NCBI RefSeq assembly: GCF_009762795.1
Contig: NZ_CP046400.1
Span: 2,519,501 to 2,583,500, forward strand
Direction: 5' to 3'
Source of the DNA: Pseudodesulfovibrio cashew
GTDB lineage: Bacteria; Desulfobacterota; Desulfovibrionia; Desulfovibrionales; Desulfovibrionaceae
DNA length: 64,000 bases
Part shown: piece by piece, positions 46,149 through 64,000 of the stretch
How positions within the stretch are numbered: position 1 is the first letter of the stretch
Layout: every line of letters begins with the position of its first letter
Program-made: the position numbers and the translations under genes
The notes under the pieces: model-generated
Told to the model about the DNA's origin: nothing
The model's database searches: none
Seen by the model: only the letters and a program-made list of their open reading frames with translations

Positions 46149-47138
46149 TTACCTGGGGAGCATATGGCTCTGTGCCATGGCGTCCTTCAGATGGTTCACG
46201 TACAGGTCGGCCCAGGCGTCAACCGAGCCGAGACCCCGCAACTGGGTGGTTACGGAGAAGCCTGCCCTGGTCAGCATGACCTTCCAGGAGTCGTCTTCAT
46301 CGCCGGCCATGTCGTTGGAGGCGTGATCACCGGCAACGACCATGAAGGGCTTGAGCAGGATTTTTTTCTTCCCTGTGGCCTTGAGTTCGGCCACGAGTTC
46401 ATCGAACCCGGGGAAGCCTTCCACGCAGCCCACAAAGACGGGGTAGTCGTGGGAGGTCTGCATGACGTGCTGGAATTCGGAATAGATGCCGGTGGAATAG
46501 AAGTCGTTGCCGTGACCCATGTAGACCAGGGTGGCACCCATCTTCTTGGCCTCGTCCACGTCGCCCTTGAGAGCAGCAGCCGCAGCGGCGATGTCGTCGG
46601 TGTAGGGGTAAGCGTCACCGGGCATGCCCAGGGCCGGGCGGCCGAGACGCAGCTTGTTGAAGGGAATGGACTTGGCCTTGACCGTGCGGATGGAGCGAAG
46701 GCCGATCATCATATTGGTAAGATCGGAGAATTCCTCACCCGCGAAGACGTGCAGGGTCTGGACCGCGAGATCCTTGTATCCCTCGTCCTGGAGGTCGGCC
46801 ACGGTGGCCAGCGGGCTTTTCACAAACAGGACCTCTCGCGGAACGTCTTGGTTGGCCTTCTGCCACTCGGGGTCATGGCGACGTTTGCTCCAGATTTTGC
46901 GGATGATCGAGGAGGTGAAGGCCAGCCTGACCGGCACGCCGGGGTAGGCCTTTTCAACGCGGGTTTTGATGTTGAGGATGGAGTCGAGGCCCGTGGGGTA
47001 GGACGTGCCGAAAGCAGCCAGAACGATGGCTTGTTTGGCGGCGCCATCGGCCTTGTGCCCGGCCAAGGCCGGGGCGGCGGTCAGGACGAGACAAAGGGTC
47101 AGCGCCACGCAGAGCGGGCGGAACGGAAAACGGAACAT
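46149..47138 (-). CDS. Periplasmic CbiK-type cobaltochelatase (CbiKp)
   Basis: A 329-residue CbiK homologue with a clear Sec signal peptide (about 1-26, ending APALA). The mature part has the same landmarks as the cytoplasmic copy at 41.9 kb: IVLAAFGTSYPTGLDS, AVQTLHVFAGEEF, LVYMGHGNDFYSTG and VVAGDHASNDMAGD. Such a secreted form is known from Desulfovibrio vulgaris, where it can chelate metal in vitro and is linked to a heme or metal transport role. It is the first gene after a B12 riboswitch. Confidence 0.9.
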   Translation of the reverse strand: MFRFPFRPLCVALTLCLVLTAAPALAGHKADGAAKQAIVLAAFGTSYPTGLDSILNIKTRVEKAYPGVPVRLAFTSSIIRKIWSKRRHDPEWQKANQDVPREVLFVKSPLATVADLQDEGYKDLAVQTLHVFAGEEFSDLTNMMIGLRSIRTVKAKSIPFNKLRLGRPALGMPGDAYPYTDDIAAAAAALKGDVDEAKKMGATLVYMGHGNDFYSTGIYSEFQHVMQTSHDYPVFVGCVEGFPGFDELVAELKATGKKKILLKPFMVVAGDHASNDMAGDEDDSWKVMLTRAGFSVTTQLRGLGSVDAWADLYVNHLKDAMAQSHMLPR

Positions 47139-47209: not shown

Positions 47210-47277
47210 AACCGTTTTTTCCCTTCGTGTCACCTTGGCGGCAAGCCCACGTACCACCGAGGCAAACCGGTATCGTT

Positions 47278-47428
47278 TTCAGGCAGGTCTTCCGGCTGGT
47301 CCCTCCCGTCTTCGCCTTCCCGGGATTCTCCCAGTGGCATATGTGAAGACGGTTCATAAGGACGTCACGGCGGCGGGTCCGCTCCCGATTCGCACGGGAT
47401 TCCCTATCAAGTCGCAATAACACCTGAA
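47278..47428 (-). promoter_or_regulatory. Cobalamin (AdoCbl) riboswitch
   Basis: Read on the minus strand, the B12 box parts are present: GGGAATCCCGTGCGAATCGGGAGCGGACCCGCCGC in order, then GCCACTGGGAGAATCCCGGGAAGGC and the closing GCCGGAAGACCTGCC. The end stem P1 pairs TTCAGG (47423-47428) with CCTGAA (47278-47283). It lies about 140 bases before the periplasmic cbiK gene and just after a promoter. It should repress the operon when cobalamin is plentiful. Confidence 0.93.
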
Positions 47429-47437
47429 GTGCGCTGT

Positions 47438-47465
47438 ATTATGCTCTTCCGCCTGGTGAAGTCAA
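47438..47465 (-). promoter_or_regulatory. Sigma-70 promoter of the cobalamin operon
   Basis: On the minus strand TTGACT (47460-47465) and CATAAT (47438-47443) with 16-base spacing match the consensus at 5 of 6 positions each. Transcription would begin near 47431, just before the riboswitch. It sits 10 bases after the cheA stop codon. Confidence 0.7.
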
Positions 47466-47474
47466 GAAGCGGGG

Positions 47475-49145
47475 CTACTCGGTTGCGTCCTTGCGTTTGC
47501 CCTGGTGGACTCGATTCTGAAAGTGCTGGAGCATTTCCTCGGTGTCGATGACCAGTGCATCCGATTCGCCCATCATGCCGTAGCCGAGGATGGGGATATG
47601 GAAAATCTCCTCCACGGGCACGGTGAAACCGGTGATGACCACCTGCTGCTGTCGGAGCACTTCGTCCACAAGGATGGCGGCCTTGTAATCGCCCACACGG
47701 ACCACAATGGCCTGGGCCATGCGGATGTCCTTTACTTCGGGCTCCAGGTCGAGCAGGTCGGCCAGACGGAGCAGGGAGTGGACCTCGCCCCGTACGTCCA
47801 CGGTCTCGCGTCCGTCGGGCAGCTCCACCACCTCGTGCAGCTTGGGCATGTAGATTTCGACCACGTCGCGGCTGGGTACGATGTAGGTTTCGCCGCCGAC
47901 CCTGGCAACCAGGGCATCCACGATGCCTTCGTTGGCCGAGCGGTCAAGCGGAATGGAAATGGTGAAGGCCGCGCCCTTGCCCAGTTCGCTCTCGATGGTC
48001 ACGTCGCCGTCGAGGGTGTTGCGGATGGAGTTGACCACGGCGTCCATGCCCACGCCTCGTCCCGAGACGTCGGTAATCTTTTCGGCGGTGGAGAAGCCGG
48101 ACTGGAGCACGAAGTTGAGGATTTCGTCCTTTTCGTATTCCTTGTCTTCTTCTGCCAACCCTTTTTCAATGGCCTTGTTCAGGATGCGATCCGGGTCGAG
48201 GCCCTTGCCGTCATCCTTGACCTGGATGAAGGCGCTGTCGCCCTTGCGCCAGGCGGCCAGGGTGACGTTGCCGGTGTCGTTCTTGCCCGCCTGCTTGCGG
48301 CCTTCCGCGTCCTCGAGGCCGTGGTCAACAGCGTTCCTGAGCAGGTGAACCAGAGGTTCGTTGAGGGATTCGACGATGGTCTTGTCCAGAGCGAGTTCGT
48401 CTCCGCGAACAACAAAGTCGAGCTTCTTGCCGATCTTTTGGCTCAGTGATTTGACCAGGCGGTGCATGGGCATGAAAATCTGCTTGAGGGGTACCAGCCG
48501 GATGGCGTCCACTTCCTGTTGAAGCTGGCTTATGACGTTGTCCAGTTCGCGCAGGGAGGCGGTTACCTGGGCCAGGTTGGAGGTTCCGCCCTGGGCGATG
48601 ACCGCATAGGTAACCATAAGCTTGCCCACCAGTTCGATGACTCGGTCCAGGGAGTCAGTGGGTACGCGGATGGAGGAGATGGCCTGGGACGCAGTCTGCT
48701 TCTCCTGCTTGGGCTTGGCGGCCTTGGGTTCTTTCTGCTTGGCCTCGGGTTCATCGGTCTGTTCGGGGACTTCCGCCTCGGTGCTCTCCTCGGGTGCTTC
48801 AAAGGCCTTGGCGGCTTCTTCCTCGTTTTCTTCCATCGGAGCAGTGGCCGAGCTTCCGGTCTCCATCATGCCCATGGACGCCGTGTTATCGAGCTGGCCG
48901 CTCAGGGCGAACAAAAATCTTTTCTGGGCCTCGCACACGCCAAGCATGGCCGTGACGATGTCGTCGTTCAGCGGGGTGATTCCTTCCGTCAGCATGTCAA
49001 GGATAGCGATGACGCCCGCGCTGGACAGCTTCATGTGTGTCAGGCCGAGCGCTTCCACGGCGTCACCGACGCTCTGGCCGGTATCCGCCACGTCGAGAAT
49101 CTGTTTCTCGATGTCTTCGATGCACTGTATAATGCTTTCCTGCAT
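47475..49145 (-). CDS. cheA: CheA-type histidine kinase without a usable Hpt histidine
   Basis: A 556-residue CheA homologue: dimerisation helix pair (about 158-220, SSIRVPTDSLDRVIELVGKL), ATPase with LVHLLRNAVDHGLED, VKDDGKGLD and DVSGRGVGMDAV, and a C-terminal CheW-like domain (HSLLRLADLLDL, VVITGFTVPVEEI). The N-terminal 90 residues look like an eroded P1 domain: the phosphotransfer AHxxKG motif is absent, and only THMKLSSAG remains. A low-complexity Glu/Ala/Lys linker follows. The Hpt histidine is in the preceding gene. There is no CheR, CheB or receptor gene here. Confidence 0.85.
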   Translation of the reverse strand: MQESIIQCIEDIEKQILDVADTGQSVGDAVEALGLTHMKLSSAGVIAILDMLTEGITPLNDDIVTAMLGVCEAQKRFLFALSGQLDNTASMGMMETGSSATAPMEENEEEAAKAFEAPEESTEAEVPEQTDEPEAKQKEPKAAKPKQEKQTASQAISSIRVPTDSLDRVIELVGKLMVTYAVIAQGGTSNLAQVTASLRELDNVISQLQQEVDAIRLVPLKQIFMPMHRLVKSLSQKIGKKLDFVVRGDELALDKTIVESLNEPLVHLLRNAVDHGLEDAEGRKQAGKNDTGNVTLAAWRKGDSAFIQVKDDGKGLDPDRILNKAIEKGLAEEDKEYEKDEILNFVLQSGFSTAEKITDVSGRGVGMDAVVNSIRNTLDGDVTIESELGKGAAFTISIPLDRSANEGIVDALVARVGGETYIVPSRDVVEIYMPKLHEVVELPDGRETVDVRGEVHSLLRLADLLDLEPEVKDIRMAQAIVVRVGDYKAAILVDEVLRQQQVVITGFTVPVEEIFHIPILGYGMMGESDALVIDTEEMLQHFQNRVHQGKRKDATE

Positions 49146-49160
49146 TTACTTTCCTTGCTG

Positions 49161-49886
49161 TTACTGCGTCGTGAAGTAGGTGTCTTCGTCAGGGTAGATG
49201 GCGATGGTGTTATCGAATCCCCAGCCGTAGAGCATCTGTTTCGCATCCGGCGAAAGGTGGCAGGCCGCAATCTTGAAAGTGGTTCCCATGCTGGCCACGG
49301 CGGCCCAGGCTGTGGAGCCGAAGGTCAGGACGTCCGAAAGATCGAGGAGAATGCGGTCTCCCGGTTCCACGCACATGATGGCCGACATGATCGGCTTGTA
49401 CTGTGACTCCAGGTGGACGCGGGGGTCCTTGACCCGGAGGATGGTCACCTGGTCGCGGGTCTCCACTTCCACGCCCGCACCGGCGGGGCCGACGTCGGAT
49501 TGACCTGTGCTGGACGCCTCCATGATGAGGGCGAGGACTTCTTCCTGCTCCTCTTCGTCAACGTCGTTGTCGCGAAGTTGCTCCAGAACCTGGAAGATCA
49601 TGTTTACGCCGCGCGCGAGAAGGGTGAGGTTCTCGGGGGAGGATTCGACCTCGCCGGCCTGGACCTTCTTGAGAAAGTCTTCGATCTTGTGCGTGAAATG
49701 GGACGCCGGTTCGAAACCGGCCATGAATCCCGTCACGCCCTTGATGGTGTGTAGCGGGCGGGCGAGTATCTCGATACCCGAGCCGACGTCGTCACCCTCC
49801 AGCATCTCAAGGCCTTCCATGACCTGCGGGTAGTACTTGTCGTTTACCTCGGAAAAGAATTCCTCGATCATCGGATCGTCGTTCAT
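49161..49886 (-). CDS. Hpt-STAS two-domain phosphotransfer protein
   Basis: A 241-residue protein. Residues about 10-110 form an Hpt domain with the phosphotransfer motif LHTIKGVTGF, His46. Residues about 140-235 form a STAS domain: VTILRVKDPRVHLES, ILLDLSDVLTFGSTAWAAV with Ser/Thr at the usual phosphorylation position, and a C-terminal helix. It sits between the receiver gene and cheA (15 bases apart), and probably supplies the histidine that the CheA lacks. The STAS half suggests cross-talk with partner-switching proteins. Confidence 0.8.
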   Translation of the reverse strand: MNDDPMIEEFFSEVNDKYYPQVMEGLEMLEGDDVGSGIEILARPLHTIKGVTGFMAGFEPASHFTHKIEDFLKKVQAGEVESSPENLTLLARGVNMIFQVLEQLRDNDVDEEEQEEVLALIMEASSTGQSDVGPAGAGVEVETRDQVTILRVKDPRVHLESQYKPIMSAIMCVEPGDRILLDLSDVLTFGSTAWAAVASMGTTFKIAACHLSPDAKQMLYGWGFDNTIAIYPDEDTYFTTQ

Positions 49887-49899
49887 GGCACGTCCTGTC

Positions 49900-50295
49900 T
49901 CAGCTGTGCAGCAGTCCGAGTTTTTGCAGTTCTTCGTAGAGCTTGTCCTTGACCACCGGTTTGACAATGTAGGCGGAGGCCTCTCCGTCATAGAAGGTCT
50001 TGATGACCGTCTGCGGATCGTCCAGGGCCGTGGTCATGATTACCTTGGCCCTTGGACGGAGATTCTCTTCGAGCTCCATCTTCCGGATTCTGGCCAGGGC
50101 TTCCATGCCGTCCACTTCCGGCATCATGATGTCCATGAGGATGAGGTCATAGGGTTTGTTTTCAGCATGCGCCAGCTTGAAGGCCTCCACGGCCTCGCGC
50201 CCGTTGACCACGACTTCAATTTCGAACAGGGGAAGAAGAAACGACCTGAGAATCTTGCGGCTCAGGAATTCATCTTCGACAATGAGGGCTCTCAT
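49900..50295 (-). CDS. Single-domain response regulator (CheY-like receiver)
   Basis: A 131-residue receiver domain with the acid pair ED (residues 7-8), phosphorylated D55 in LILMDIMMPEVDG, the TTALDD switch position and KPVVKD with the conserved Lys. No output domain is present, so it acts through protein contacts. GGAGG stands before the ATG at 50295; the longer frame to 50316 is rejected. It starts the minus-strand trio. The upstream gap (50296-50579) holds a TTGACA hexamer (minus strand, 50361-50366) but no clear -10. Confidence 0.9.
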   Translation of the reverse strand: MRALIVEDEFLSRKILRSFLLPLFEIEVVVNGREAVEAFKLAHAENKPYDLILMDIMMPEVDGMEALARIRKMELEENLRPRAKVIMTTALDDPQTVIKTFYDGEASAYIVKPVVKDKLYEELQKLGLLHS

Positions 50296-51899: not shown

Positions 51900-51956
51900 G
51901 AACCTTTCCGTACTGGTGCTGCTGTGCTAAGGCATGGTTTGAAGGGAGAATTACGA

Positions 51957-53450
51957 GTGAAGCACGCAGCCGTATCCCAAACCCCGCCTATCCTGCTTAT
52001 CGTCGAGGACAGCAAGCTCGTCCGCGGGGAACTCAAGCGCGCCATCGGGAGCGCCTTCGCCTTCCAGATAGAAATGGTCGCCTCCTATGAGGAAGCAAGG
52101 GAATATCTGGATTGGCATTCCAGAGATATCTTTCTCGCCATTCTCGATCTCAATCTTCCCGGTTCCCCTTCCGGGGAGATCGTGGACCTCTTCTGCTCCA
52201 TGCGGGTGCCGAGCCTCGTCCTGACTTCGGATTTCACGGAGACCACCCGTGAACGCATGCAGTCCAAGGAAATCATCGATTATCTGGTCAAGGACGCCCA
52301 TGCGGTCGAAAACGTTCTGGCCTACATCGACCGGCTGTACCGCAACCGAAGCACCAAAGTCATGGTGGTCGAGGATTCCGAGCTGTCCCGCCTGTACGTG
52401 AGCAGCCTGCTCCATCGCCAGATGTTCAAGGTTATCGATGTGCCTGATGCCGAGTCCGGCCTGCGTATCCTGGAGCAGCAGGACGATGTGGGCCTGGTCA
52501 TCATCGATTACGCTCTCCCCGGCATGGACGGCATCGAACTCACCCAGCGGATCAGGGAGAAGTTTTCCAAGGAGACCATGGCCGTCATCGGTCTCTCCTC
52601 GGTCTCGGACACCATGCTCACGGCCCGGTTTCTCAAAAACGGCGCCAACGATTTCATCACCAAGCCTTTCGAGGTGGAAGGGTTTTTCTGCCGCATCAAC
52701 CACAACGTGGAGATGCTGGATTCCATGCGCGCCCTGCGGGACGCCAACATGGTCAAGAACCAGTTCCTGGGCATGGCCGTGCACGATCTTCGCAGTCCCA
52801 TCAACGGGATCAACGGGCTGGCCGAGATGCTGCTCAGCGACATGTGCGGTCCGATAAACGAGGAGCAGCGTGAGATCATCGGGTACATCAGGACCGCCAA
52901 CAGGCAGATGAATGCCCTGGTCAGCGATCTGCTGGACATTTCGGTCATCGAGTCGGGCAAGCTCGAGCTCGTGCTGGATCAGCGTAACCTGCGGGAGGTC
53001 GTGGAGCAGCGGTTGCGAATCCAGGGGTTTGCCGCAAAGCGGAAGAACATCCTGCTTAAACGGACGCTTGAAGACGTGCGCGAGTTTCGTTTCGACCGCA
53101 ACAGGGTGGGGCAGGTTCTCGACAACCTGTTGTCCAACGCCATCAAGTTCTCCCCGGTCAGCGAGGTCATCGAGATCAGCATGGGGGAAGAGGATGGCCA
53201 TGCCGTTATCTGCGTGACAGACCACGGGCAGGGCATCCCGCCAGACGAGGCCGATCTGCTGTTCCAGACCTTCAGGAAAACCAGCGTCCAGCCCACGGCC
53301 GGGGAATCCGGGGCCGGACTTGGACTGGCTATCGTGCACAAGATCGTTCTGGCCCACCGGGGACGGGTCTGGGTCGAGTCCGAATACGGGAAGGGCGCTA
53401 CCTTCTGTTTCTCCCTACCTCTCGATACCTCATCGGATTCCGGCGATTGA
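51957..53450 (+). CDS. Histidine kinase with two N-terminal receiver domains
   Basis: A 497-residue soluble protein. Receiver 1 (about 13-130) has the acceptor Asp in LAILDLNLPG; receiver 2 (about 135-255) has it in LVIIDYALPGMDG and ends with KPFEVEG. Then come a HisKA domain with the phosphorylated His in AVHDLRSPINGI and a HATPase domain with NLLSNAIKFSP and GAGLGLAIVHKI. It has no membrane segment or input domain, so it probably receives phosphate or contacts from other kinases. GTG at 51957 has GGGAGA upstream. No response regulator gene is beside it. Confidence 0.9.
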   Translation: MKHAAVSQTPPILLIVEDSKLVRGELKRAIGSAFAFQIEMVASYEEAREYLDWHSRDIFLAILDLNLPGSPSGEIVDLFCSMRVPSLVLTSDFTETTRERMQSKEIIDYLVKDAHAVENVLAYIDRLYRNRSTKVMVVEDSELSRLYVSSLLHRQMFKVIDVPDAESGLRILEQQDDVGLVIIDYALPGMDGIELTQRIREKFSKETMAVIGLSSVSDTMLTARFLKNGANDFITKPFEVEGFFCRINHNVEMLDSMRALRDANMVKNQFLGMAVHDLRSPINGINGLAEMLLSDMCGPINEEQREIIGYIRTANRQMNALVSDLLDISVIESGKLELVLDQRNLREVVEQRLRIQGFAAKRKNILLKRTLEDVREFRFDRNRVGQVLDNLLSNAIKFSPVSEVIEISMGEEDGHAVICVTDHGQGIPPDEADLLFQTFRKTSVQPTAGESGAGLGLAIVHKIVLAHRGRVWVESEYGKGATFCFSLPLDTSSDSGD

Positions 53451-63927: not shown

Positions 63928-64000
63928 TCAGAAGTCTTCGTTCGCCGCCTTGCGGATGAGCGCAGCGGCACGCATGGCCAGCTGGGTTATCTCCGGCTTG
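63928..64000 (-). CDS. C-terminal end of an unidentified gene
   Basis: The last 73 bases hold the 3' end of a minus-strand frame whose final 23 residues run from KPEITQL through AMRAAALIRKA to NEDF and a TGA stop. The rest lies outside the window. The hypE terminator 23 bases downstream supports a real gene end. The fragment is too short for any family call. Confidence 0.4.
   Translation of the reverse strand, partial: KPEITQLAMRAAALIRKAANEDF

Follow-up and report, generated by a model that had tools for sequence, protein, structure and literature searches.

To our knowledge, the biochemistry of split CheAs, in which the kinase and its P1 domain reside on two different proteins, comes essentially from one organism. 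Such systems are rare, with 11 split as against 470 complete CheAs in a 2010 survey as given by PMC3591291. In the CheA3/CheA4 pair of R. sphaeroides, trans-phosphorylation between the CheA halves has been proven; the P1 protein also carries P5, by which it is array-bound, together with a CheY6 phosphatase region, and CheA4 is described as having no P1 at all (PMC3591291). An Hpt step tied to a STAS-based partner switch is found in the HptB-HsbR-HsbA system of Pseudomonas aeruginosa (PMC6482189, PMC5085249). Our search of the open-licence literature returned no prior description of an Hpt-STAS protein with CheA, of partner switching with CheA or of a Desulfovibrio CheA with Hpt.

The window, i.e., the whole 64-kb stretch of DNA that was analyzed, carries three co-directional genes on the minus strand in the order receiver, Hpt-STAS and CheA-like kinase, separated by gaps of 13 and 15 bp. 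The first-pass annotation had read these as a lone receiver, an intact Hpt (His46) fused to STAS, and a CheA with dimerization, ATPase and CheW domains whose N-terminus is devoid of the AHxxKG motif, with no receptor, CheR or CheB nearby; that reading was borne out, with the dimerization domain being recovered weakly (see below). The receiver is a stand-alone CheY-like protein of 131 aa (49900..50295, minus strand; Response_reg, 2.8e-20) with its Asp55 codon at 50131-50133; it consists of the receiver domain only, and the PP2C output of the HptB-HsbR-HsbA type is absent. The Hpt-STAS protein of 241 aa (49161..49886, minus strand) likely starts at the ATG at 49886, a longer ORF from 49991 being disfavored. 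The CheA-like kinase of 556 aa (47475..49145, minus strand) lacks the phospho-histidine and matches the P3-P4-P5 structures of CheA with an E-value of 1e-107. No MCP domain was found anywhere in the 64-kb window, and no CheR or CheB was seen in its ORF lists. Apart from cheA, the one gene with a CheW domain that reaches into the window is a CheV gene at the right edge (last ~70 bp); the end of this gene (CheW-like and receiver) occupies 63928-64000, about 14 kb from the operon, and continues in L177.

Immediately downstream of cheA, a cobalamin riboswitch (47265-47442, minus strand, 96.9 bits) lies ahead of a CbiK-like gene (46149-47138); an association of the operon with this riboswitch, which sits 3' of the operon and before the CbiK gene, was rejected. 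A CbiK relative is found 3' of this CheA in many genera, indicating that the conserved neighborhood extends past the trio. On the plus strand, two genes or about 1.6 kb from the operon, is a gene for a hybrid-type REC-REC-HisKA-HATPase protein (51924-53450). Elsewhere, the same genome encodes 26 MCPs, 10 CheW-domain proteins and two further CheAs, both with intact Hpt domains; a CheA of 991 aa (L173, 6141-9113) has two Hpt stretches and is near genes for a HEAT-repeat protein and a CheY-like protein.

Three domains are assigned to the kinase core. The P3 dimerization domain (residues 156-220; 48486..48680, minus strand) gives a weak Pfam match to H-kinase_dim (residues 157-212, 19.4 bits vs a cut-off of 23), but is aligned in CheA structures and shows a mean consensus of 0.78. 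The P4 ATP-binding kinase domain (residues 221-405; 47931..48485, minus strand; HATPase_c, 7e-15) has intact N, G1, F and G2 boxes, with conserved motifs RNA.DHG, DDG.G, GFSTA and SGRGVGMD, and the nucleotide boxes are invariant. The P5 CheW-like coupling domain (residues 406-541; 47523..47930, minus strand) matches PF01584 with 1.1e-16 and 61 bits (cut-off 23.5); its conservation of 0.61 is below the 0.79 of P4.

Pfam detects no Hpt in the kinase, and an alignment of family members reveals no conserved phosphorylatable His in its N-terminus, so that the first-pass observation on this region stands. The N-terminal 85 residues are nevertheless conserved, with D50, G55 and P58 invariant. When compared with a conventional CheA P1 profile using hhalign, this region was matched with a probability of 93.4% (E 2.5e-7, 77 columns), and a ten-residue gap in it lies precisely over the RALHTIKGSG segment of conventional P1. 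The observed score was 42.9. None of 150 column permutations exceeded 18.3, the reversed alignment scored 10.3 and other CheA segments stayed below 19; circular shifts were unsuitable as a control because the local alignment retains most of the match. In the predicted model, the second helix of the region is reduced to 7 residues (27-33) vs about 21. A direct profile comparison with the Hpt of Hpt-STAS produced no match (E 0.065), and Pfam gave no hit. The idea that the N-terminus is an unrelated helical domain was dropped after the match to the conventional P1 profile with the His segment missing. Given this gapped match and the negative controls, we identify residues 1-84 (48894..49145, minus strand) as a degenerate P1, or pseudo-P1, with the phosphorylation site removed: on sequence evidence, the P1-like domain is kept and not absent, and what has been excised is the phospho-histidine site.

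An intact P1 is instead found in the preceding gene. Residues 1-127 of the Hpt-STAS protein (49506..49886, minus strand; His46 codon 49749-49751) form a CheA-type P1 (Hpt) domain, which scores 28.4 bits vs a Pfam cut-off of 24.6 and is matched in 29/29 aligned family members. The active-site set of CheA P1 comprises His, Lys, His and Glu; His46 is kept in all intact Hpt-STAS copies, and Lys49, Gly50, His66 and Glu69 vary little or not at all. This domain matches the conventional CheA P1 profile with an E-value of 3.8e-22 and is CheA P1-like also by PDB sequence match and by fold: the predicted structure (mean pLDDT 87) consists of a CheA P1-like five-helix bundle followed by a STAS fold, and Foldseek retrieves the CheA P1 of E. 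coli, Salmonella and R. sphaeroides for the N-terminal half. P3 and P4 are absent from the protein, and the C-terminus is STAS, with no CheW domain (P5). In one complete genome (G215; L041, 4001-4725), Hpt-STAS is broken by a frameshift, through either sequencing error or real loss, with receiver and CheA intact.

The STAS domain (residues 138-236; 49179..49475, minus strand) is weak by Pfam and clear by predicted fold, with SpoIIAA, RsfB and RsbS as Foldseek matches. A gap-free alignment, read by eye, pairs its Ser191 (codon 49314-49316) with the serine in a canonical STAS protein encoded by the same genome, which places it at the SpoIIAA phospho-serine position. Position 191 is S/T in 57/59 sequences and ranks third in conservation among the 99 STAS columns, with the serine being lost only in the genus g36. 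Thus, by alignment, the phospho-acceptor position of STAS partner switches is predicted to be occupied in Hpt-STAS. Overall, the STAS domain is less conserved than the Hpt (0.56 vs 0.73). In the receiver, E7, D8, D55 and K112 are invariant across 58 family loci.

To assess co-conservation, we used 247 genomes of Desulfovibrionaceae, a drawn subset, and read 60 loci for gene order. Full-length Hpt-STAS is present in 82/247 genomes, and the P1-deficient CheA was found at E <= 1e-80 in 81; all 82 Hpt-STAS genomes encode such a CheA (81 by search and the 82nd, G031, by adjacency), although this count reflects common descent as well as function. G031 is the only disagreement between the two genome sets, and its diverged CheA adjoins Hpt-STAS. 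These genomes are spread over 12/44 sampled genera, with named relatives including Pseudodesulfovibrio, Salidesulfovibrio, Humidesulfovibrio, Desulfocurvus and Halodesulfovibrio. Receiver, Hpt-STAS and CheA occur in this order on one strand in 58/60 loci; the remaining two lack the neighboring receiver. The three-gene order proposed in the first-pass annotation as a check is therefore widely kept in the family, and this co-occurrence led us to reject a chance association of the three genes. As the flanking genes vary from genus to genus, the trio emerges as a conserved unit and, judged by its conservation, is under selection. Beyond the family, the profile gives one full-length Hpt-STAS, in another family of the same order (G633); a phylum sample from beyond Desulfovibrionaceae gave ordinary CheA P1 domains only. 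A tree of the kinase core places all P1-deficient CheAs, including those of G031 and G633, both of which are long branches, in one clade (support 99/98).

These two most divergent members also differ in gene content: Hpt-STAS is preceded by a gene for an RsbW-like HATPase_c_2 protein that ends in a STAS-like part, in place of the receiver. In G633 the same-strand order is SpoIIE/PP2C phosphatase, RsbW-like HATPase_c_2-STAS, Hpt-STAS and P1-deficient CheA; among the operons read, RsbW linkage is confined to G633 and G031, and PP2C linkage to G633. G637 keeps RsbW-STAS and PP2C genes, with no Hpt-STAS at that locus. These arrangements support a partner-switching link for the divergent relatives of the lineage.

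The operon probably codes for a split CheA, in which the kinase would phosphorylate His46 in trans and the phosphate would then pass to Asp55. Loss of the phospho-histidine from the kinase along with a co-encoded Hpt-STAS suggests a rewired relay with a movable carrier, which may feed a second regulatory switch. The first-pass annotation had likewise proposed a relay from CheA to a separate Hpt-STAS protein; co-conservation and the missing His in CheA support it at the sequence level; the trans-phosphorylation, the transfer to Asp55, the array membership and the role of STAS are inferences. In such a system, receptors and CheW would control the kinase, which most likely sits in receptor/CheW arrays via P5, the one feature pointing to array membership, with receptor, CheW, CheR and CheB all unlinked. 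P4 would phosphorylate His46 in trans, for which CheA3/CheA4 is a precedent (PMC3591291), with no self-phosphorylation, making Hpt-STAS the true P1; His46-P would then donate to Asp55 of the co-encoded receiver, which, being without an output domain, would act by binding a partner. Placing P1 on a separate STAS protein would free the phospho-carrier from the array, and a second input onto this carrier could come through STAS binding or STAS serine phosphorylation; accordingly conceived, STAS would be either a tether for the free P1 or a coupling to a serine kinase, and the pseudo-P1 would probably be used for docking or restraint. The MCPs and CheW-domain proteins of the genome offer possible coupling partners for a split CheA. 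Counting against it, the two CheAs with intact Hpt in the same genome might phosphorylate Hpt-STAS, linked receptor, CheW, CheR and CheB genes are missing, Hpt-STAS has no P5 of its own, unlike the P1 protein of R. sphaeroides, the P5 of the kinase is less conserved than P4, P3 falls below the Pfam cut-off and the receiver is absent from 2/60 loci.

What the STAS domain contributes can be read in more than one way. It could be a mere docking or dimerizing module without signaling input, which brings P1 to CheA and replaces the covalent tether, perhaps via the pseudo-P1; we regard this reading as possible but less likely than not. It draws on the Hpt-STAS P1 having no P5 to hold it in the array, from which we reason that another tether is needed, on the retention of the pseudo-P1 with its three invariant residues though it cannot be phosphorylated, and on the faster sequence change of STAS relative to Hpt; a domain devoid of input is at odds with the conserved Ser191 and with the RsbW context of the divergent relatives.

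The same two observations lend themselves to the reading that Hpt-STAS is mainly a partner-switching component, with His46-P altering the binding of STAS to an RsbW-like serine kinase, such that an array-type kinase would control an anti-sigma or other switch and the receiver would act as a phosphate sink or reset. The G633 and G031 gene orders, Ser191 at the SpoIIAA phospho-serine position and the recurrence in Desulfovibrionales of a wider cluster of RR-PP2C, RsbW-STAS, Hpt-P2-STAS and CheA (see below) are in its favor. However, RsbW and PP2C genes are missing from the window operon and from nearly all family operons, the RsbW linkage comes from two long-branched genomes, and STAS is the less conserved half, with g36 having lost the serine. 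Moreover, the sole good RsbW-type domain of the window genome is fused to dCache-HAMP-SpoIIE (PP2C) and has its own adjacent STAS gene. We accordingly rate this reading as rather unlikely for the window system. The early suggestion that Hpt-STAS might also take part in partner switching thus gains ground from the two divergent relatives and from Ser191, but not from the window operon: with no adjacent RsbW or PP2C and an RsbW-type domain provided with its own STAS, the link is conjectural in this genome. A more elaborate proposal, which we offer as speculative and of low probability, would make Hpt-STAS a two-way node: His phosphorylation by an array CheA would gate STAS-RsbW-type binding and serine phosphorylation would gate phosphotransfer, so that the array would drive a partner switch, with the pseudo-P1 as a decoy or dock for the mobile P1. 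Finally, it is very improbable that the CheA is a non-kinase here (a scaffold or phosphatase cofactor) and that Hpt-STAS serves as a general Hpt for hybrid kinases, among them the REC-REC-HK at 51924-53450, as the absence of the phospho-histidine from CheA and the presence of the hybrid-type gene about 1.6 kb off in several members of the genus might suggest, given that all the P4 nucleotide boxes, needless for a scaffold, are invariant, that the hybrid-type gene is missing beside the operon in most other genera and that Hpt-STAS co-occurs with the P1-deficient CheA.

Several other systems combine some of the same parts. In other Desulfobacterota, certain loci (L148-L154) have genes for STAS, STAS, a stand-alone CheY and CheA in succession, which suggests that CheA is commonly partnered by STAS proteins across this phylum; there, however, the STAS proteins are single-domain and the CheA has an intact P1. 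Another case is a recurrent Desulfovibrionales cluster (L200, L199, L202-L209, L211, L213, L218, L219, L221, L223-L225) of RR-PP2C, RsbW-like HATPase_c_2-STAS, Hpt-P2like-STAS (about 370-550 aa) and an intact CheA, linking a chemosensory kinase to partner switching. Like the window operon, it has Hpt and STAS in one protein whose gene is directly 5' of CheA, but it differs in that its CheA has a functional P1 and falls elsewhere in the CheA tree, its Hpt-STAS protein has an extra P2-like middle, and RsbW and PP2C are linked. Direct descent of the P1-deficient CheAs from the intact CheAs of these clusters is unsupported by the tree, in which the divergent members lie on long branches. In the families f108 and f110, the Hpt-P2 part is continuous with CheA in a single long reading frame of about 1050-1100 aa, and STAS comes before it. 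With respect to HptB-HsbR-HsbA, relatives of the window system include RR-PP2C, RsbW-type and STAS parts; the window operon itself is without an RR-PP2C protein. In the Pseudomonas pathway, hybrid kinases feed HptB, which is an Hpt on its own; CheA plays no part, and Hpt and STAS are on separate proteins.

Among the closest counterparts is CheA3/CheA4, which likewise comprises a kinase protein without a functional P1 that keeps P3-P4-P5, a P1 on a second protein without P3 and P4, and a cognate receiver (CheY6). In the present system, P1 has STAS as its fusion partner and lacks a P5, the kinase retains a deleted pseudo-P1, and linked receptors, CheW, CheR and CheB are absent. Across 12/44 sampled genera, this would constitute a separate split-CheA lineage of sulfate-reducing bacteria, in which a precise deletion accounts for the loss of P1 activity and a STAS-fused P1 has taken over. 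It provides a natural setting for testing why a kinase should give up its own phosphorylation site. Its divergent relatives further place CheA signaling beside serine-phosphorylation partner switching, two types of pathway usually kept apart. Thus, sharing two architectural features with CheA3/CheA4 but missing the P5 on the P1 protein, the combination of STAS fusion and excised P1 appears to be a new variant of split CheA, distinct from the CheA3/CheA4 type.
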